Of a stretch of 64,000 nucleotides of DNA, positions 9,871 through 53,796 are shown in pieces. Source of the stretch: Ilex aquifolium (lineage: Eukaryota > Streptophyta > Magnoliopsida > Aquifoliales > Aquifoliaceae); contig OX637401.1 of assembly GCA_951799425.1 (NCBI GenBank), positions 32,041,780-32,105,779 of the forward strand, in the 5' to 3' direction. Numbering within the stretch: position 1 is the stretch's first letter; every line of letters starts with the position of its first letter. A model generated the notes under the pieces. It was not told the DNA's origin, searched no databases, and saw nothing but the letters and a program-made list of their open reading frames with translations. The translations under genes and the position numbers were made by a program.

Positions 9871-11810
9871 ATGTCTACGGAAACGGTTATTGTGAACTGT
9901 TCAGAAGTGGGATCGGAGTCAATGGCTATGCCAAAAAGGGCTTATGTTACTTTCTTGGCAGGAAATGGAGATTATGTGAAAGGGGTTGTTGGCTTAGCTA
10001 AAGGTTTAAGGAAGGCCAAAAGTGCTTACCCCCTTGTGGTCGCTGTCTTGCCAGATGTGCCCCAAGATCATCGCGAGATCCTTGAATCTCAAGGGTGTAT
10101 TGTCCGCGAGATTGAGCCAGTGTATCCACCAGAGAATCAAACTCAGTTTGCCATGGCGTATTACGTTATCAACTACTCAAAACTTCGTATTTGGGAGGTT
10201 TGTGATCAATATTAATTTTTTTGGTTGCATGTGTGTTGCCCAATATATTGTTGCTCATGTTACATATATATTGCGCATAGAGATTTGTTTCTAAAATACA
10301 ATATAATATTTTTTTTCTATACCGAAATTGCGATTTATCCATTTGCAATCATGTTCATTGTTCATGTAAATACCAAAAGAATTAAAATTGTCAAATTAAA
10401 AGCGCAATTATCACCTTTTCTGAGATTTAGGTTTGACACGCATGCTTCGGTCATAATATGTACCGACAAAATTTGGAAAAGTAAAAACAATAGATCGTTT
10501 ATAATGTATCCTTTTTCTTCTTTTGTAGCTTAAGAAAAAATATGTAAATACTTTACCAATCAACTTATATATGAAGCTAGATTTTTTACCCGAATAATTT
10601 GTGTTGGGTATTGCATACGTGAGAATCTCATATCAGATAGAAAAACAAGGTAAAAATGTCATAATATATTATTGATAGACTCACCACATATAGTCTTAAG
10701 TTCTTAGATGGATTTGAGTTCCAAACATGTATATTGAATCTTGAATTATTGGGCTCGCAGTCTCCCAAGTCCTAACAATTCGGATTCCTTCCGTTTTCAT
10801 ACTTTCTTGATCTAAGGTGTTGACGCTACCTTTTAGTTCTGCTATAAGGTGTTGAATCAGATCTGTAGCTATATTGATCATATAACTGATGACATGATGA
10901 GATTTATTGTTGTTGAAGTTTGTGGAGTATAGCAAGATGATATACTTGGATGGAGATATTCAAGTTTTCGGTAACATTGATCACCTCTTTGAGTATCCGG
11001 ATGGGTACTTTTATGCCGTTATGGACTGTTTCTGTGAGAAAACTTGGAGAGACACACCTCAATTTAAGATTGGCTACTGTCAACAATGCCCAGAAAAAAT
11101 CCAGTGGCCAGCGGAGTTAGGTCCATCTCCACCATTGTACTTCAATGCTGGCATGTTCATCTATGAGCCAAAGTTGTCCACTTACAATGATCTTTTGAAT
11201 ACCCTCCAAGTCACCCCTACTACTGTGTTTGCAGAGCAGGTAATAACCACATACATACAAGTAATATTTTTGGTCTTTCTCAAATGGAAGTTGAAGATAT
11301 TTTTCGAATTACAATGCATGTTTCTTCAAAAAATTAACTTGTTTGGATAATAAATTACGCATGCAGGATTTTCTGAACATGTTCTTTAGGGACATCTACC
11401 GCCCTATCCCTCCAGTGTACAACCTTGTTTTGGCAATGTTGTGGCGACACCCAGAGAAGATAGACCTTGACAAAGTGAAAGTTGTTCACTATTGTGCTGC
11501 GGTGAGTGTTAGCAAACATAAATTCCATTGCATAACAAGAAAATTAATGTAAATATATAGTTAATTATCATTTAGAGCATAGTAAATAGTACCTTTACTG
11601 ATACAGGGAGCAAAGCCATGGAGGTACACTGGTAAAGAGGAGAACATGCAGCGAGAAGACATAAAGATGCTGGTGGAAAAATGGTGGAAAATATACAAAG
11701 ACGAATCGTTGGATTATAAGAACACATCAAAGGATGAGGCGAAAGCAACAATTCCGGTTCATTCAGAGAATGGTGTTCCTAGCTACATTACTGCGCCATC
11801 AGCAGCCTGA
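9871..11810 (+). CDS. GolS: Galactinol synthase, complete, four exons
   Basis: Transfers galactose from UDP-galactose to myo-inositol to form galactinol, the first committed step of raffinose-family oligosaccharide synthesis (cytosolic GT8 glycosyltransferase). Exons are 9871-10197, 10919-11239, 11367-11501 and 11607-11810. All junctions are phase 0 and the protein is 328 residues, normal for the family. Motifs visible are KRAYVTFLAGNGDYVKG near the N terminus, the metal-binding DGD in MIYLDGDIQVFGNIDH, the cysteine-rich CFCEKTW and GYCQQCPEK segments, HYCAAGAKPW across the third and fourth exons, and the hallmark C-terminal pentapeptide APSAA. The ATG at 9871 is preferred because it lies just after a TATA box and gives the usual N terminus. 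Family members are often induced by drought, cold or heat, but no specific stress element is proven here. Nothing is broken. Confidence 0.97.
10198..10918 (+). other. Large first intron of galactinol synthase
   Basis: 721 bases, AT-rich, with clean GT and AG borders. No coding segment or clear transposon ends were seen. Confidence 0.7.
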
Positions 11811-12542
11811 CTCATTTTAGGACAAAGCTAGCTACTTCTAGATTTAGTTCCACTGGTTATGCTTTTCTATCTATCATCAGTATAACCACTATAGGCTTGA
11901 CTATAGATATACTCTCGCCATTCAAATAAGTATTAGCTCTCTATTAGTTTCAGGATTGCTTTGTTTAACTTGTGTTTATCTACTTCCTTCAAACTGAGGA
12001 AACTACACCTACTATTCTTAATTTAACTATGTTGGTGTTTAATAACTATTTACTGTTTTGGGCCATTTGCATGAATGAGCTAGGGTTGGTTTGTTGGAGC
12101 AATCATTTAAATAATCTGATGGTTAATGTTATGAATCAAGTGGAAGCTTGGGAGAAGGAAGCTTTCGCCTATCCCTAGAGTTACTTTTCAATTAAGCAAG
12201 TGCAAGGTCATATAATTCTGCAATCATTCAATCTTAAATGTATGTTGCACCACATCTAAAGGACATGTTGTTGGAGTAATTGTGTGACATAGTGAAGGCC
12301 AAGATGTTCCCCAAAACGGCAGAAGTAATTCCTTTTTCAAAGAATGCCGAATGTTCAAAAGAAAAAGTTAATTCTTAATACAGCAAGTAACGTAGATTCA
12401 TAAGAGATTTATCTTCCTTGATGATGCATCAAGTGACGCAAGGTCAAGTGTGCTCTATGTCAGAGTGAATTTGATTTAGAAAGAGAAGCCAAACTAATTT
12501 AGTCGTCCAAAGGCTTGACATAGAGAAAAAAACTGAAATCAA
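11811..12542. other. Galactinol synthase 3' region and intergenic DNA
   Basis: Contains the 3' untranslated region and AT-rich spacer. The short frame at 11972-12178 has no recognisable domain. Confidence 0.4.
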
Positions 12543-12899
12543 TGCATCTCCAACCATAACTCAAATTTAAATTTGAGTAAAAAATCTAAATAAAAAATCT
12601 AAAAAACTTGCTTCAACTCTTACTCAAACTTATACCAAATCAATGGAGACTCTTTTTTGTACTCAAATTAAGGGAGACTCAAATCTTTATCCAAATCTTT
12701 AATAGTGAGATTTCACCCTCTTTTAAAGATCCAATGATTATCTTTACTCATTTAATTTTGGATTTGCCCTCATTTAAATTTAGGTTTCTCCTTCTTTAAA
12801 TTTGAGTTTGTCAATTGGAGCCATTTGTATCAAATCAAGCTTTTTACTCAAATACTAACTTAAATTTAAGTAAAAATTTGAGTCATGGTTGGAGATGTT
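12543..12899. mobile_element. MITE with CATCTCCAACCAT termini
   Basis: The terminal motif CATCTCCAACCAT (left, near 12545) is repeated inverted as ATGGTTGGAGATG (right, near 12885). It is followed inwards by ACTCAAATTTA-type sequence on both sides. The roughly 357-bp element has no coding capacity. Target duplication not clear. Confidence 0.65.
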
Positions 12900-13288
12900 C
12901 TTAATGATAATGGCAGAGCTACTAAGCAATGGGCATTAGAGTTCGAATCTCATCAATATTGATTTATATTTTAAAGGAAAACTAAAATCTCAATCAAACT
13001 GCCGATTTTCAAATTGAAGCCTTTATTAAGAAAAAGAAAATCAAAATTTAAAAAAAGGATGTTTCTTTTTTTTTTTTTAGCAAGTGAAGGCATATATGCA
13101 ACAACAAATGCACTGAATAAATATATGGCATCACAAAATTTTCGCAAAAATTCCAGAAATTCAGGCCATAGATTCACAAATGTTGTGCAATTTCATACAA
13201 TACTCCACTGGATTCTCCTACAAATGAGAAATCATTCAAATCTTAATAGTATAAATCATTGGATTAATGCTTTGAATTTTACAAATAA
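12900..13288. other. Intergenic spacer with a tRNA-like scrap
   Basis: Near 12909-12955 a TGGCAGAGCTA motif is followed by GAGTTCGAATC, resembling tRNA A and B boxes. It could be a worn SINE head, but no 3' tail or flanking duplication was found. Otherwise AT-rich and featureless. Confidence 0.3.
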
Positions 13289-14498
13289 GGGTCATTTGGA
13301 AGCCGGTACACCAAATTAGACATAATTGTAAAAAAGTACACAGAACAAAATGTTTTGGAAAAAAGTACGCAGCTGAAATACAAAGACGTAAATGACCATT
13401 TTGTAAAATTTTCTTTCCTAAAAAATGTAACAAGTCATTTATCTTAAACGCTGAAATTTAAGATCATTTAATTCGAAATCTCTAATGCACCTTGATTCGT
13501 GCGTTTTTTTTTTTTGAAAAATATTACATAACTCAAATGAAACCCAAAAATTAAAACCCAAAAGAATATCATCCCATGGATGAGTGTGTAATAAGTGGGC
13601 CCCACTGAAAAAATTGATGTGACCCACTCATCCAAGGGATGATATGCATTTGAGTTGTAACTTTTTGGGTTTCATTTGGATTTTGTAGCATTGCTCTTTT
13701 TTTTTTTGGAAAGTGGTTTTGTTTTCAAATTATATTTATGCATTAAATATCTCATAATTTTATGGGAGAACTTTAATATTCCGTTTATTTTAGGATATAT
13801 CACTTTGTTTGAATTTCAAAATTTGTTAATTATTTTTTTATATAATTTAAAATATAAAATTATTTACATGGTAACAAAAACGTAACAAATTCGTTAACTA
13901 ATAGTGTAACAAAAACAGTATAACAATAACTTGTAACAAAGACAGTGTAACAATACACCGTAACAAAAACAGTGTTCAGTGATTTGTGCATGTGGTAACA
14001 AATTCAAAACAGAGATAGACTGTTTTAAATGAAATTATATGAAAATATATGTTTGAAAAAATGTAATAGTACAATATTTTGTGTAAATGTCTTGTTACAC
14101 TGTTATTATTACACTGTTATGGAGTTCGGATATTAATATAATTTGAAAACAAAGCCAGTTTTCAAAAAAAAATACATATGAATCAAGCTGCATTAAATAT
14201 AATTTGAAAACAAAACCACTTTCAAAAAAAAAAATACGCATGAATCAAGGGAGGATATAAAAATACGGAATATTAAAGTTCTCCCATAAAACTAGGAGAT
14301 GTTTAATGCACCACTTTCCAAAAAAAAAAAACGCATGGATCAAGGGAGGATATAAAGGTCAGAAGAAAATATGGAAATTTCAAATAATGTACTTGGAAAC
14401 AAATAAGTATCAAAATTAAAGATTTTTTTACCCTACGTTTTTTTCTGTGTACTTTTTTACAATTAACTCCAATTTTGTGTACCCCTTCTAATTTCCCC
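13289..14498. mobile_element. Foldback transposon with 9-bp target duplication
   Basis: The 1210-bp element has terminal inverted repeats of about 60 bp. Both ends carry TTGTAAAAAAGTACACAGA in inverted orientation (near 13328 and 14445). The termini read GGGTCATTTGGAAG at the left and GGGGAAATTAGAAG at the right end read inwards. Flanks TACAAATAA (13280-13288) and AACAAATAA (14499-14507) match at eight of nine bases. No transposase is encoded. A nested MITE lies at about 13516-13696. Confidence 0.8.
13516..13696. mobile_element. MITE nested inside the foldback element
   Basis: CAAATGAAACCCAAAAA near 13535 is repeated inverted as TTTTTGGGTTTCATTTG near 13662. An inner palindrome around GGGCCCCAC is flanked by CATCCCATGGATGAGTG and CACTCATCCAAGGGATG. 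About 180 bp, non-coding. Borders are approximate. Confidence 0.6.
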
Positions 14499-15181
14499 AA
14501 CAAATAATATGCAAGCCCAATTGAATGGGTTCTGATTCTTAACTCTTTCCGGCCCATACATCACGAAACCTTCGACAACCCATTTGCTAACGAACTGCCA
14601 AATCTTTATATAAAAACCCAATTATATCCACATAAAATAAATAACATCAACTCTACAATAATTCATACAATTTCAGACCAACAAATATTTTTTTTTTAAA
14701 TTTATTTTTTCATAAAATATTAATTAAATGAATTTATCGTGTTAAAATTTAGTTTTTTTTTTATGATATTATCCTAAATCATTTTTTGTTTATATTATTT
14801 CGTCGTGTTATTTTTAAGAGTAATGCTATTGAGACCTAAAAATTTGATCTAATTTGTTAATCTAATGATGTGGTTTTATTATAACTATTAAATTAATACT
14901 AAGTTTCAATGTTTGATGGGATCCACAATCAATCTAAATATTATATAACAAATTAGATCAAGAAATCAAATCACTAAATTAGGTCTCAATGTTCCCAATA
15001 ACAATGGGACCTAATTTGTATTGTGTCGAACTCGTATAGAAAATTGACACGTGTCCCCCGGTCCTACTTGAGAATCGTAGTGAATGGAAGAAACTACGCT
15101 GTTAGTCATTTAATGAAAAAGAACACCATCTGAAATAAGTAGGCGAGTGTTTTAGATGGATTACCCCAAATGCAATGTCAT
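14499..15181. other. Intergenic DNA with one MITE
   Basis: AT-rich and non-coding apart from the MITE at 14828-14990. Confidence 0.4.
14828..14990. mobile_element. Small MITE with ATTGAGACCTAA termini
   Basis: An exact 12-bp terminal inverted repeat, ATTGAGACCTAA, sits at both ends. Further inverted sequence inside (TTGATCTAATTTGTTA near 14843 and its complement near 14946) supports the call. 163 bp, no coding capacity. Target duplication not clear. Confidence 0.65.
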
Positions 15182-15255
15182 GGCTGGACTCAACCCCAAG
15201 GTAGGGGACCATTCACCTGGCTGGACTCAACCCCAAGGCAGGGGACCATTCACCT
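15182..15255. repeat. 37-bp tandem repeat, two units
   Basis: Two nearly identical units, 15182-15218 and 15219-15255, each starting GGCTGGACTCAACCCC and differing at one base. Function unknown. Confidence 0.9.
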
Positions 15256-15291
15256 GCACCAATGGCTTTGGCTTTGGCTTTTGCCTTCTCT

Positions 15292-15295
<4 letters not shown>

Positions 15296-15331
<36 letters not shown>
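15296..15331. repeat. AG microsatellite
   Basis: About 18 uninterrupted AG units. Confidence 0.95.
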
Positions 15332-15336
<5 letters not shown>

Positions 15337-16204
15337 TAGTTAGCTTTGCTGTCTTCTTTGTGAGAATTTTTTGCATGGGTATTACTCACCACGTGGGTCA
15401 GTCCAGGTGGTGACAAATACCACTCAAAAATTTGCCCAGTCAAGTGCTTTTTCAAAAAATGCCCAGATTCCATGAATGGCAATACTGCATTTGCTATCAC
15501 TGAGCTTCAAGTATGGATTCCAACTATATGAATATGACTTCTCTTTTACCGTTTCATTTCTTATATATGTATTATACATTCATCTCATAAATATAATTCA
15601 TGCATAGGAGTAAGTATGATATATGTATGTATCAATATTATACATTGTAAATTAAGATTCATGTATATACATTATATATTGGTACAATGAATTATATATA
15701 ATATTAAAATGTACCAACATATTACCATATGACTATTAACTAACAGAGCACAAAGATGTGACTATGGACACGAGAGTGGTAATTGTAATTTATGGTAATT
15801 GTAACAGAGCCTCCCTCTGTATGACTTCTCCATTTTTATTTTTGATTGTATTATCAGATGATGAAAATGAGCACAAAGATGTGACCATGTCTATGAGAAA
15901 GGTAACTGTCTATTTGGTCCTCTGTATGGAAGGCTTTTCTAATTTCAGCAAGAAAAGTTGCATCATGTATTGTCGACCCAATTCCCATTCACACCATCCC
16001 TACCCTACCCCTGATAATTTCTCTACTTTATCTCCCTCTCTCTATGCAATAATTGTCTATATATTCATCCTGATCAAAAAAAAAAAAACAAAAACTAAGT
16101 GTGTATGTGTGCCCCTCTATAATATTAAGACATATTATACATTCTGCAGCTTCCCCTGCCGGTACCTCGGCCTCCATTATCAACATCACCGTCTTCTCTC
16201 TGTT
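15332..16204. other. Upstream region of the PME-like gene
   Basis: No complete gene. It contains two copies of a 21-base segment (15746-15766 and 15869-15889), each between splice-like sites. The plus-strand frame stays open from 15758 into the PME-like gene, but that part of it looks non-coding. Confidence 0.4.
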
Positions 16205-17798
16205 ATGGAAATGGATCAACAGTCACCACAAGAGATGCCCCAGTCACCTCCACCTCCACCTCCACCTCCAGCACTACTTTTACCTCCTCTTTCTCCTCCG
16301 AATACTCAAGTAGTCATTTTGCACCACAATACTTATTCAAGAGCTGCAAAGATTATCATGACTTTGGCCATCACTGCTGTATTGATCTGGCAGATTGCAG
16401 TCTTGCTAAGACATAGAGAAGTCAGCTCTTGGTGCAGTCACAAGGTGGTTGTTGCAAAAGGAGGAGGAGCCGACTTCTCTTCTATAGCAGCAGCTGTCAA
16501 AGAGGCCCCAAAGTACAGCCCCTACAGATTTTGTATTTTTATTAGAAGAGGGGTGTACAATGAAGAGGTTTTCGTAGGGCCTGAGAAAACAAACTTGGTC
16601 TTCATTGGTGATGGCATTGGAAAGACAATCATTAAGTCCAACCGAACCATTGAAGATGTCCAAGATATTGCACAACGAGCCACCTTATGTGAGTTTTCAA
16701 ATCATATTCAAATATTGATGTTACGGTTCCTATTTTGTTAGTTGTCAACATGCTTTTTCATGTTATAAATAAGCATTAAACAGTGTTTGAACTCATTTTT
16801 TGTGGTTTAAATAACCATCCATTTATTATTTACAGTTCAAAAGTGCAATATTACTTGCTTCCATAATGTGTTTCTGTTTATGTTTTCAACCATTAATCAA
16901 ATACATTTACACTAGATCATTGCAATATCGAATGATTTGAGTCCTCTGTTACTCTTAACAGCATATATAGGTCATGTTTATTCATTTGATAATTTATGGA
17001 TCTTTTGTCTTGCTTTGCGATAGATATGTCCAATGTTGTTGAACGTGTCTTTACTGCTTAGAAAATGAGAAACTTGACACAAGCTATTGTCTGTCACTAA
17101 ATTACATTAACATTGGACCTCGATTTGCAGGGATTAATGGAAAAGGATTTATGGCTCAAGATTTAACGATTGAAAGTACAGCATGGCCTGACAATAATCA
17201 AGGAGTGGCACTTGAAAATATGGCAGACCAGTCAATTTTCTATCGCTGTAGTTTCGTGGGCTACAATGCCACTATAAATGCTGTCGAAAGGAACCAATTT
17301 TACCATAGTTGTCAAATTCAGGGTAGTCATTATTTCATATTTGGAGGTGCATGTGCAATTTTTCAGAAATGCATAATAAATGCTATCAAGCAGCACCCTC
17401 AAGAAAAAATTGTGATGTCCGGCCAGTCCCGAAGAAGTGAGGCTTTTAGAACTGGTTTTGTATTTCATCTATGTGAGTTCTTTACCATAGGCGGGGTAGT
17501 AGCTTCACCAGCAACTACTTATTTAGGTGGTCCTTTAGCTGCATACTCAAGAATTGTGGTCATGCAGTCTTTTTTGGATGCCTCAATTGTTGGTTGGATG
17601 GTAAATGCATCTACACCGCCTACTGTGTATTTTGGTGACTACGAAAATAAAGGACCTGGTGCAAAAACCAGAACCAGTTCACCTGCTCTCCACTCCATTG
17701 AGGACTCATCCTTGGCATCTCAATTCACCGTGACACCCTTTTTGGCACGGCAGAATTGGATACCATCCTTTGTGGCGTATAATCCATACTTAGTGTAG
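16205..17798 (+). CDS. Pectin methylesterase-like protein lacking catalytic residues
   Basis: A CE8-family (right-handed beta-helix) homologue. Exons 16205-16688 and 17131-17798 give 383 residues, with clean GT-AG borders. Order: a proline-rich stretch (about 12-33), a membrane segment (about 50-68, ITAVLIWQIAVLL), then the PME fold from about residue 80. There is no N-terminal inhibitor domain. Landmarks kept are GVYNEE (116-121), QGVALE (185-190, oxyanion-hole Gln) and FIFG (230-233). Landmarks lost: the QDT acid/base motif reads YNATI (Asp replaced by Ala, 208), the nucleophile Asp before FIFG is Tyr (229), and LGRPW reads LGGPL (Arg and Trp gone). Catalysis is therefore very unlikely, although the frame is fully open, which points to a retained pseudoenzyme rather than a dead gene. 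Possible roles in pectin or inhibitor binding are inference. A second ATG at 16211 is possible. Confidence 0.85.
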
Positions 17799-18364
17799 TC
17801 GTGATATGTAACAATTGTTTTATACTTCAACCTCTAACATGTATGCTGCCAAAACAGATTTATAAATTTGTGTACAGTGCAATAACTAGTTTATATATGA
17901 GACACTAACTCATACACGGTTTTAAAGTGGGAGATCTGAATCTATTAATTTCTTCACATTTTTATGTACCAAGAGTGGATCCAAACCGCCCAATGTGAGG
18001 ACCAGGGCAGTTGATTGAAATGGACATGAGATGGACACTTTTGAAATAAAGCCACAGAAATCTGTCATGCTGGAAACCATTCAACCAGCTTCCTTTTGGA
18101 ATTTTCATACTCATGGATATCTAGTATCTATGATATTCAAGTTTTTGCATGGTTATGGGTGCTTTTAGAAAGTTGTTAAATAGGTTTTTCATCTCCTACG
18201 GTTACGCCATTTCTACCACTACCTTTTGTGTCCTTTTTATTCTAGTTATGAACACAGTTTTATGTTGATAGAAGATTTTTTATAAAGGTAAAATTGATAT
18301 TTATTCTGACTTCGATGAGTTGTAACCTTGATGGTAAGGTATTTAACCCTCCTTACTTTCTAGT
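17799..18364. other. Intergenic spacer between converging genes
   Basis: Holds the 3' regions of the PME-like gene (plus) and the first PMEI gene (minus). Nothing else recognised. Confidence 0.4.
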
Positions 18365-18928
18365 TTACAATTCAAGAAGATTAGAGATAACCGCGATGAT
18401 ATCACAGAGTAGCTCCAAATTGAGATTGTCACTTGAAAGGGTGGATCTGAGACCCCGTGATTTGAAGGAGTTCTCACATAAATCAGCACTGGTGCTGGCG
18501 CCTGCCGCTGCAACATTAACGTCACGGTAATAACCAGATGGCAAGTAGTCTTTAGCATCTTGAAGATCATTTCCAGCACTTTGATATTCATAAGCGCATG
18601 TGAGATAACAAGCCTTTAGACGAGGATCGCGTGCTCCCAGCAAGAGTGAGTGAATCTTGATACTAGTGCTAGAGGCATTGTAAATTGCCAATTCGATTGA
18701 GATTTGGCCGAGGACATTTAAGTTGGCTGTTCTACTACGGGGATCAGACCCCAGAGCCTTCAAGCAAAATGCTGGATTTTCCGCTTGGCGACAAACATCA
18801 TTCAGTAAGGTGCTACCAGCTGCAGCTCCCGTGCTCTGGCTGGCAAATGAAGGGCTGAGAAATAAAAGCACAATTAGGAGTGAAATCAATGAGGAGGAGG
18901 AGGAGGAACTAAGAAAAGACAAGCCCAT
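18365..18928 (-). CDS. Plant invertase/pectin methylesterase inhibitor, classic type
   Basis: Single-exon gene, 187 residues. A signal peptide (about 1-29, Ser-rich then LLIVLLFLSPSFA) points to secretion. The PMEI four-helix bundle follows, with the first disulfide pair in VCRQAENPAFC, then SDPRSRTANLNVLGQ, and the second region in CYLTCAYEYQSAGND and SADLCENSF, ending LLCDIIAVISNLL. Such proteins bind and block pectin methylesterases or vacuolar/cell-wall invertases. Which target applies cannot be told from sequence. It resembles the PMEI at 47511 (both have FCL, SDPR and QISI motifs), so the two are local paralogues. It ends about 570 bp from the converging PME-like gene. Confidence 0.9.
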   Translation of the reverse strand: MGLSFLSSSSSSSLISLLIVLLFLSPSFASQSTGAAAGSTLLNDVCRQAENPAFCLKALGSDPRSRTANLNVLGQISIELAIYNASSTSIKIHSLLLGARDPRLKACYLTCAYEYQSAGNDLQDAKDYLPSGYYRDVNVAAAGASTSADLCENSFKSRGLRSTLSSDNLNLELLCDIIAVISNLLEL

Positions 18929-20111: not shown

Positions 20112-20738
20112 CTAGTTCCTAGGCAAATAAGTTGCGACATTGTTGATAATGTTACAGTAAAGTTCAAAATCCTGAATCATTTCTGGGAGTCTTGATGAGT
20201 CAAGTGGAGTATATCCTGGAAAGCGAGGGTCATAGGGACGTCGAAAGGGACCGGGGCCGCCGAATGTATATGCCGAAACTTGAGCATTACAATCACGGAC
20301 TTCGTTCGGGGCTTGGCTTGCATCTGCAGCTACACGTCGGTAGTCACCGGATTGCAAGTGTTTGGTGGCGCGGTCGAGGTCACGGATGGCCTGGTTATAC
20401 CTTCCGGCACAGTCCCTGTAAAGTTGTCTTTGTGGATGATCATTTGTGCTTTCAACTAAATTGTCGAGCAAGTCGTGAATATCATTAGCGCTCCTGCGTG
20501 CCATGGCAATATAATTATCGGCAAGACTATAAGCATCTCCCAGGGAACCTGGAGTAACATAGCCGGGTCTCAAACGTTCCCAGCAGTTACGAGGATTGAT
20601 TGTGCCATCGCATACCCTCTTCATGTCAACATTTACTCCTCTGAATGGGTTGTAAGCATGGGAGGGACTAGTATTGAAGAACACACATGCCAGTAAAAGA
20701 AAAACCAGCAAAGAGAAGGTGTCGTAAGTGGAGGCCAT
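20112..20738 (-). CDS. PMEI-domain protein with Pro/Gly/Tyr-rich insert
   Basis: Single exon, 208 residues from the ATG at 20738. The frame is open upstream, but the protein start is set by a signal peptide (MASTYDTFSLLVFLLLACVF, cleavage after about 25) and a TATA box 84 bases before it. PMEI-type helices follow, with CDGTINPRNCWERL (first Cys pair), RDCAGRYNQAIRDLDRATKH and DYRRVAADASQAPNEVRDC. Before the last helix sits an unusual linker with GGPGPFRRPYDPRFPGYTP, then a final helix with an extra Cys (ELYCNIINNVATYL). Closely related to the gene at 46549, including the bases around the start. Secretion and enzyme-inhibitor fold are well supported. The target is unknown. Confidence 0.85.
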   Translation of the reverse strand: MASTYDTFSLLVFLLLACVFFNTSPSHAYNPFRGVNVDMKRVCDGTINPRNCWERLRPGYVTPGSLGDAYSLADNYIAMARRSANDIHDLLDNLVESTNDHPQRQLYRDCAGRYNQAIRDLDRATKHLQSGDYRRVAADASQAPNEVRDCNAQVSAYTFGGPGPFRRPYDPRFPGYTPLDSSRLPEMIQDFELYCNIINNVATYLPRN

Positions 20739-46548: not shown

Positions 46549-47157
46549 CTAATAGTTTGTTGGAAAATAATTTGCGACATTGCTGAGAATGCTGCATCGA
46601 ACTTCAAAATCCTGCATCCTTTCCGTGAGTCTTGATGAGTCCGACAAATAACCTGGAAAGCGACCGTCAAATGGGTATCCTGGAACGCGACCGCCATATG
46701 AATATCCTGGAAATCTCTCTTTGCATTCACTGACATCCTGCAAGGCATGTGTTGCTTCGTACGCCACACGCTGATAGTCACCAGAGAGCAAGTATTTCTT
46801 GGCATGTTCGAGGTCGCGGATGGCCGTGTTATATTTTGCGGCACATGACCTGTAGAGTGTTCTTAGTTGAGGATCATTTGTGCTCTCGACCATGTTACCG
46901 AGCAAGTCGTGAATCTCTCTAGCGCTGTTACAGGCCACGTCAATGGACCCATCGGCAACGCGATAACAATCTTCTGTGGTACCGGTGCCATAACCAGGAC
47001 TCAAATTGTCCCAGCAATATTGAGGATTTATGGTGCCATCGCATATCGTCCTCAGCTCAACGGTTCTGTAGCCATGGTAATAAGGCCTTGCCAAAGAGGG
47101 ACCGATGAAGACAAACACAAGGACAAGAGAAAGCAACATAGCATTAGTGGAGGCCAT
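46549..47157 (-). CDS. PMEI-domain protein with repeated PGY-type insert
   Basis: Single exon, 202 residues from the ATG at 47157. Upstream in-frame codons lie before a signal peptide (MASTNAMLLSLVLVFVFIGP) and are not favoured. PMEI features: CDGTINPQYCWDNL (first Cys pair), then ACNSAREIHDLLGNMVESTN, RSCAAKYNTAIRDLEHAKKY, and DVSECKERFPG. Then an insert with three near-repeats (FPGYSYGGR, VPGYPFDGR, FPGYLSDSSR) before the last helix, MQDFEVRCSILSNVANYF. Closest relative in the window is the gene at 20112, which has a shorter version of the insert. Secreted inhibitor-fold protein. Target enzyme unknown. Confidence 0.86.
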   Translation of the reverse strand: MASTNAMLLSLVLVFVFIGPSLARPYYHGYRTVELRTICDGTINPQYCWDNLSPGYGTGTTEDCYRVADGSIDVACNSAREIHDLLGNMVESTNDPQLRTLYRSCAAKYNTAIRDLEHAKKYLLSGDYQRVAYEATHALQDVSECKERFPGYSYGGRVPGYPFDGRFPGYLSDSSRLTERMQDFEVRCSILSNVANYFPTNY

Positions 47158-47510: not shown

Positions 47511-48068
47511 TCAAAATATAGGGATATGATTAGAGATTGCCAAAATGATACTACATAGATCTTCAAATTTTTTATTTTTTTGCCGAAGTTGAGTTGGGTC
47601 AGCGGGTGGCACTTCTAACTCATCGCTGCATTCTTCAACGGCATTCAGAGCAGTCGATGCTTGACCATTGAGGCTTTTACCAGAGCTCAAGTGTTGCTTG
47701 GCATCGTCAAGGTCACGGACGGCATCACCATAACTTTTCGAACACACCAAATATCGCGGCTTCAGCTGAGGTGTTGCCTGTTTAATGAGTTCTCCAATCA
47801 TGGTGTAGGTTTCTTTGGCACTTGCAGATGCTAAGTCGATGGAGATTTGGGCGAGGATATTAACATCTGCCGTGGTAGTACGTGGATCAGATTTTAAAGA
47901 TTGCAAGCAGAAAGGAGGATTAGTGGTCTGGGAGCACAGTTCTTCGAGGTAAGCATCTGTTGCCATCACTATTAGCCTTGCAGATGAGCATGAGGGACTA
48001 ATGAAAACAAATACAAACACAAACACTAGTAGAAGAGAAACCTGCGAGGAAGGACTACCCAAACTCAT
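47511..48068 (-). CDS. Plant invertase/pectin methylesterase inhibitor, classic type
   Basis: Single exon, 185 residues. The first ATG is at 48068; the open frame before it starts with GTG and is not used. Signal peptide about 1-31 (SQVSLLLVFVFVFVFISPS). Conserved PMEI blocks: ELCSQTTNPPFCLQSL (first disulfide), SDPRTTTADVNILAQISIDLA, LVCSKSYGDAVRDLDDAKQHL (third Cys), AVEECSDELE (fourth Cys), and the final helix FEDLCSIILAISNHI. Most similar here to the gene at 18365. Secreted inhibitor of pectin methylesterase or invertase. Which one is not decidable from sequence. Confidence 0.9.
   Translation of the reverse strand: MSLGSPSSQVSLLLVFVFVFVFISPSCSSARLIVMATDAYLEELCSQTTNPPFCLQSLKSDPRTTTADVNILAQISIDLASASAKETYTMIGELIKQATPQLKPRYLVCSKSYGDAVRDLDDAKQHLSSGKSLNGQASTALNAVEECSDELEVPPADPTQLRQKNKKFEDLCSIILAISNHIPIF

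Positions 48069-49391: not shown

Positions 49392-53796
<4,405 letters not shown>

Follow-up and report, generated by a model that had tools for sequence, protein, structure and literature searches.

The PME-fold gene and its parts

The window, by which we mean the whole stretch of 64,000 nucleotides analysed here (32.04-32.11 Mb of contig C11 in the 800 Mb Ilex aquifolium genome), carries on its forward strand a gene of the pectin methylesterase (PME) fold at 16205-17798, referred to below as the dead PME gene. Its two exons splice into an open frame of 383 codons and a stop, in agreement with the intact gene read earlier from the letters alone. Exon 1 (16205..16688, +) starts with an ATG, stays open up to a GT donor at 16689 and encodes amino acids 1-161 and the first base of codon 162, and its start region recurs in the sister copies described below. 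The intron (16689..17130, +) has GT...AG borders, keeps the frame and has the same position and phase in a paralogue on contig C7, while exon 2 (17131..17798, +), matched by PF01095, carries the larger part of the PME beta-helix domain and includes the stop codon.

The spliced protein matches the Pfam profile PF01095 with an E value of 1.6e-73 (amino acids 81-367, profile positions 2-296 of 298), its top relatives of solved structure are the PMEs of tomato (1xg2_A, E 3.1e-51) and carrot (1gq8_A, E 6.8e-48), and on this homology it is predicted to belong to the CE8 fold. The fold had been called intact, a description that stands as far as homology goes, given the profile match and the retention of 52 of 79 near-invariant columns, and that is qualified by the loss of the other 27; these columns were defined from 18 active PMEs, 17 of the Ilex genome and that of tomato. 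The C7 paralogue keeps 44 and loses 35, and 42 are kept by both. Losses fall on six of nine functional positions and on 21 of the 70 other near-invariant ones, a borderline difference (Fisher P 0.056) that we do not claim as significant, and a structure prediction made for exon 2 alone, not for the spliced protein, gave a pLDDT of 31, too low to be informative. Cysteines C125, C166 and C200 are retained in both dead genes, that of the window and that of C7, and C166 and C200 presumably form a disulfide.

Ahead of the PME domain, the proline-rich tail and the membrane anchor recognised in the earlier note are both present. The proline-rich N-terminal head spans amino acids 1-32 (16205..16300, +), resembles the head of the C7 protein, and is followed by a single hydrophobic segment at amino acids 50-68 (16352..16408, +) with a Kyte-Doolittle mean of 2.5 (2.0 in the equivalent segment of the C7 paralogue); after residue 90, no segment above 1.6 was seen in either protein. 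When amino acids 29-80, which cover the anchor and the last part of the head, were used as a query, the genome returned five matches, all of them copies of the dead PME gene. The idea that these elements had been swapped in for the usual inhibitor domain is right in so far as a Pfam profile search of the window protein found no PME inhibitor (PMEI) domain (PF04043), but the lack of such a domain is not peculiar to this gene, as it is likewise missing upstream of active PMEs on the same contig, at distances of about 115-325 kb. With neither a PMEI pro-domain nor an RRLL-like cleavage motif, the window protein does not have the layout of a type I PME. An anchored protein with a lumenal or apoplastic PME domain is suggested by the hydrophobic segment, by the lack of a type I cleavage motif and by two sequons shared with C7 (N146 and N320, matching 142 and 316 there); the charges flanking the anchor are positive on both sides and do not fix the topology.

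Loss of the catalytic site

Residues are numbered here as in tomato PME1, and the list of 11 critical residues is the one given in the available part of PMC4008260. Eight of the 11 are altered in the window protein, including all three catalytic ones. By alignment to the tomato numbering, Q131 and the catalytic D132 have become Asn207 and Ala208 (17265..17270, +), the catalytic D153 has become Tyr229 (17331..17333, +), and the catalytic R221 and the substrate-binding W223 have been erased in Gly295-Pro-Leu297 (17529..17537, +), so that D132, D153 and R221, by which an active PME (EC 3.1.1.11) is recognised, read A208, Y229 and G295. The four lost active-site positions claimed from the motifs (Ala for the Asp of QDT, Tyr for the Asp before FIFG, and LGGPL for LGRPW) are all correct, corresponding to D132A, D153Y, R221G and W223L, and the alignment adds Q131N, F80A, Y135N and the deletion of W248; F156 and Y218 are retained. 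The sole stabilising Gln retained is Q109 (Gln185, 17199..17201, +). The oxyanion-hole Gln earlier described as intact is in that sense still there, but the second Gln, Q131, is now Asn, and the sister gene on C7 has lost both. Together with Thr209, Asn207 and Ala208 make up an N-glycosylation sequon (NAT, 17265-17273), which Q131N has created where the catalytic residue used to be; the window gene and a decayed copy on contig C1 have it, and the C7 gene does not.

Such losses stand out against the other PMEs of the genome. Exon 2 was compared across 48 other copies, a survey that left aside several incomplete matches and those PMEs whose domain is spread across further exons, and D132, D153 and R221 are kept in all 47 that are fully readable; the 48th (L080) keeps both of the catalytic positions that it covers. 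Three of the 48 (L047, L074 and L079, the last with four stops) carry stop codons, yet none has lost any of the three catalytic residues; stops go with an unchanged catalytic set in these broken copies, and the dead PME gene shows the reverse. One further copy with its catalytic residues kept (L073, C13:17.614 Mb) has Lys in place of Q109, the sole altered stabilising residue among the 48.

Sister copies in the genome

Searching the whole genome with the protein turned up an intact paralogue on the minus strand of C7 (1473104-1475961). It shares 62% identity with the window gene in exon 2 and 57% in exon 1, and carries the identical replacements D132A, D153Y and R221G. The same trio of replacements occurs in a C1 copy (48.298-48.300 Mb) that also contains several stops and a frameshift; a second C1 copy was found as exon 1 alone, and further scraps of a dead PME on C7 (1.488-1.493 Mb) are broken. 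The duplication on C1 is wider than the gene: about 6 kb including the dead PME (window 11600-17900) recur at C1:48.296-48.306 Mb (L041) in pieces 72-90% identical, with the gene decayed there. Judged by what is shared, the window gene and its C7 copy look like a small retained pseudoenzyme family, and the decay of several sister copies implies that the family is partly dispensable.

Because both intact genes share the three replacements, the head and the anchor, the catalytic losses would have preceded their split (dS 0.86), and the simplest reading is that they occurred once, before the C11 and C7 copies separated. In trees built from exon 2 (30 rows) and from the PME domain (19 rows), the two dead genes form a pair (100/100) at the end of a long stem, which has no settled place among the active PMEs. 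Three placements were compared by AU tests and none was rejected: beside the C11 cluster p is 0.518, beside L016/L018 0.513 and beside L003/L008 0.231. The argument for descent from the C11 cluster therefore draws on architecture and neighbourhood and not on the tree.

Selection after catalytic loss

Over 378 codons, the two intact dead genes differ by a dN of 0.275 and a dS of 0.859, giving a dN/dS of 0.32 (bootstrap 95% 0.24-0.43; lnL -2512.29 with the ratio free vs -2542.34 with it set to 1). For exon 2, the ratio is 0.257 (bootstrap 0.17-0.36), and this interval overlaps those of three pairs of active PMEs from the nearby cluster (dN/dS 0.178-0.241 at dS 0.76-0.86). There is thus good support for continued constraint on this pair after its catalytic loss. 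The overlap with active neighbours and the retained fold match could also be accommodated by a new or relocated esterase, or some other enzymatic activity, but Ala, Tyr and Gly occupy the catalytic sites in both copies, no replacement set is seen and Q109 is gone from the C7 protein, and we consider a surviving enzyme highly improbable.

For the window copy alone, constraint is only moderately supported. A three-branch fit that includes the decayed C1 copy gives dN/dS values of 0.41 for the window branch (P 0.027 vs 1), 0.32 for C7 (P 5.5e-12) and 0.54 for C1 (P 0.11), which do not differ significantly from a common value (lnL -3098.87 vs -3100.34). The selection for a non-enzymatic role proposed in the earlier note is thus upheld for the family, whose paralogue shares the losses at a dN/dS of 0.32, and is weaker on the branch of the gene itself; the ratio near 1 that had been named as evidence to the contrary did not appear, the values computed between paralogues being 0.32 pairwise and 0.41 on its own branch.

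A rival reading takes the window copy for a recently silenced pseudogene, its frame unbroken so far, with the family functioning as a pseudoenzyme in the C7 copy only. It is in keeping with the broken state of two other C1 descendants and of several copies on C7 (1.488-1.493 Mb), with a rejection of neutrality on the window branch only at P 0.027, and with single-base changes whose ratio of nonsynonymous to synonymous is 38:24 on that branch, much like the 47:26 of the decayed C1 branch. Divergence from the C1 copy can be read both ways, since the flanks (5' 0.105, 3' 0.085) have changed no more than codon positions 1 and 2 (0.113), whereas third positions (0.201) and the intron (0.158) have changed more; these site-class figures count BLAST-aligned pieces only, which favours conserved flank, and in them coding sequence is not clearly separated from flank. 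A line of evidence that does not enter the codon model comes from an approximate neutral simulation of 2000 runs, in which 3.7 stops are expected on the window branch and stop-free drift occurs in merely 3.1% of runs, and in which 16 stops are expected on the C7 branch and zero stops occur in 0 of 2000. Neither of the marks of a pseudogene, a broken frame or a dN/dS near 1, is found in the window gene, and we hold its recent silencing to be unlikely. Retention as a pseudoenzyme is the reading that we prefer: the predicted fold, the catalytic loss and the retention under selection together point to a pseudoenzyme for the family, with evidence of moderate strength from the window branch itself.

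Neighbouring inhibitor genes

The earlier note had placed PMEI proteins next door, and one does adjoin the dead PME gene: PMEIa, a free-standing convergent gene of 187 amino acids (18365..18928, -; PF04043, E 4.9e-18), lies 0.6 kb downstream, tail-to-tail. Its closest solved relative is the kiwi PMEI 1xg2_B of the tomato PME-PMEI complex (E 1.2e-30). The C7 orthologue holds the same convergent position and is 55% identical (support 100/98), and both genes are intact, with a dN/dS of 0.48 between them (lnL -1233.23 free vs -1239.28 at 1). In the window as a whole there are four PMEI-like genes on the minus strand, PMEIa-PMEId (18365-18928, 20112-20738, 46549-47157 and 47511-48068), all with PF04043, of which PMEIb and PMEIc form a pair (100/100) with an extra Pro/Gly/Tyr-rich stretch preceding the last helix. 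Between 58600 and 62000, long overlapping minus-strand open frames, Pro/Thr/His/Ser-rich in several frames, look like a repeat array and not like genes.

The order of dead PME, PMEIa, another PMEI match, PMEId and a dehydrogenase gene is colinear on C11 and C7. The C7 partner of PMEId has a support of 85/87, and the dehydrogenase gene, which we take to be a dihydrolipoamide dehydrogenase, is 94% identical between the two; C7 carries two further PMEI matches at 1469494 and 1462347. The dehydrogenase gene (window 49392-50657; C7:1.458 Mb; C11:9.094 Mb) serves as a marker of duplicate blocks, and a third block at C11:9.09-9.12 Mb has PMEI matches and a dehydrogenase copy with one stop, the dead PME being unmatched there. 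The dS between the C11 and C7 blocks is uneven, at 0.30 for the dehydrogenase, 0.41 for PMEId, 0.72 for PMEIa and 0.86 for the dead PME, and for that reason the dead genes are not claimed to be direct products of one block duplication; a more ancient tandem pair that underwent different losses could account for them as well.

The pairing with a convergent inhibitor gene extends to active PMEs. In a count based on 51 of 141 PME matches and 79 of 121 PMEI matches, a convergent PMEI within 2 kb accompanies 8 of the 14 PMEs that lack a PMEI match in the upstream 6 kb, with both dead genes counted in the eight, and 1 of the 37 that have one. The Fisher P of 3.7e-5 is too small, because tandem copies are not independent; in one of the 14 (C5:16527772), a PMEI match on the same strand lies just past the 6 kb limit. 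Free tail-to-tail PMEIs are seen at C11:31.73-31.94 Mb, at C7:6.68 Mb and at 16205-18928 of the window. It looks as if the inhibitor, once part of the same protein, has been relocated to an adjacent gene. The arrangement, which active PMEs share, was probably inherited and is by itself no evidence that the dead PME acts as a decoy.

Candidate binding partners

In the tomato-kiwi complex, as set out in the available part of PMC4008260, F80, Y135 and W223 of the PME contact T73, E76, N77, T113 and D116 of the PMEI, and salt bridges join D116 to K224 and E76 to R81. The three PME contact residues are A, N and L in the window gene and T, R and P in the C7 gene. R81 and K224 are Q and A in the window gene and are also altered in the C7 PME, at two positions that vary among active PMEs too. 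On the inhibitor side, PMEIa keeps T73 alone of the five PME-contact residues and the C7 PMEI keeps E76 alone; among seven other PMEIs used for comparison the number retained is 0 to 2, so that nothing special attaches to the PMEI-side change. Going by these residues, the dead PME does not appear to be a canonical PMEI-binding PME.

This bears on the suggestion that the protein serves for tying up PMEIs, that is, as a decoy that would sequester ordinary inhibitors through the canonical PME-PMEI interface and so free active PMEs. Its attraction lies in the position of the PMEI gene 0.6 kb downstream and of the orthologue that likewise adjoins the C7 copy. The loss of F80, Y135 and W223 in both dead genes makes the canonical decoy a weak reading, the neighbouring PMEI has changed four of the five matching residues (for which the seven other PMEIs offer the comparison just given), the salt-bridge partners are changed as well, albeit at variable positions, and active PMEs are flanked by tail-to-tail PMEIs too, in a neighbourhood that is probably inherited. 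We regard such a decoy as very unlikely.

Binding pectin, the other role put forward earlier, has likewise lost ground, as four of the six pectin-contacting aromatics are gone from the window gene. Here the beta-helix groove of a membrane-tethered protein would hold homogalacturonan and anchor the wall to the membrane. The groove residues F156 (W in C7) and Y218 are kept, as is Q109 in the window copy, but both intact dead genes lack F80, Y135, W223 and W248, and a pectin-holding groove seems to us quite improbable.

Proposed function and significance

Taken as a whole, the evidence leads us to give a probability of roughly 0.7 to the explanation that the window gene encodes a membrane-anchored CE8 pseudoenzyme that has been retained and acts by binding instead of catalysis. 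The CE8 beta-helix would no longer de-esterify pectin. An uncleaved N-terminal signal anchor may hold the protein in the plasma membrane or in a membrane along the secretory pathway, with the proline-rich tail most likely cytosolic and the PME domain lumenal or apoplastic. Function would then come from the binding of a partner, most likely some protein of the PME/PMEI system, alternatively a wall polymer, and a tethered dead PME could hold this partner at the membrane or relay its state through the cytosolic tail. The adjacent, co-retained PMEI is the first candidate; that it is the partner, through a rewired interface, is a tentative proposal with the odds somewhat against it. More speculative, and in our judgement improbable, is the further step in which the anchored dead PME and a dedicated tail-to-tail PMEI with a rewritten interface would work together at the boundary between wall and membrane without any enzymatic role, as receptor and ligand or as a tether.

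If this explanation is true, a CE8 pseudoenzyme family has long been under selection (dS ~0.86), and the PME beta-helix is useful beyond pectin de-esterification, with the repeated pairing with a PMEI supplying a concrete candidate partner. A PF01095 match alone would also be a poor basis for predicting wall-modifying activity.

PMEs that lack catalytic residues have been met before in family surveys, of which the available parts were consulted. The flax survey counts members without catalytic residues, with D132 found in 91 of 105 PMEs (PMC4008260), the tomato survey removes such members (PMC7063471), and in the tobacco survey the conserved regions are incomplete in some members. Among the open-access matches listed, judged by title and the start of the abstract, none was a study of a natural catalytically dead or retained plant CE8 pseudoenzyme, and a module of an anchored dead PME with a dedicated PMEI is not described in the literature searched. 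Measured against the literature searched, what appears to be new is not the existence of PMEs without catalytic residues, already counted in flax, but a retained CE8-fold pseudoenzyme in plants.

Comparison with known systems

The window protein resembles the plant PMEs of known structure, those of tomato (1xg2_A) and carrot (1gq8_A), in its PME domain, where it keeps three cysteines and 52 of the 79 near-invariant columns, and differs from them in the absence of the catalytic residues, in the loss of four of six substrate aromatics, and in a proline-rich head and anchor where neither PMEI pro-domain nor cleavage motif is present.

Closer to home are the PMEs of the cluster at 31.73-31.94 Mb of C11, which lie on the same contig and, like the window gene, are without an upstream PMEI domain. 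A hydrophobic segment precedes the PME domain in all four that were read, as in the window gene, for five of the eight a PMEI gene in convergent orientation lies no more than 2 kb away, and a joint clade with the dead genes is unrejected (AU p 0.518). They differ in that catalytic residues are kept in all six examined of the eight, and in that none of them was matched by the query of amino acids 29-80.

In flax, LuPME32, a transcribed gene for a protein of 386 amino acids with a transmembrane segment and none of the three catalytic residues (PMC4008260, available part), is like the window protein in length, in its predicted membrane segment and in catalytic residues that were not found. The likeness is one of description and not of sequence: LuPME32 is listed as type 1 with a PMEI domain, and its residues may be missing through truncation. 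Outside the PMEs, the iRhoms offer a parallel in mode of action, for although their fold and pathway differ from those of the window protein, they are, as the available part of PMC3149277 presents them, likewise membrane proteins without key catalytic residues that act without catalysis.
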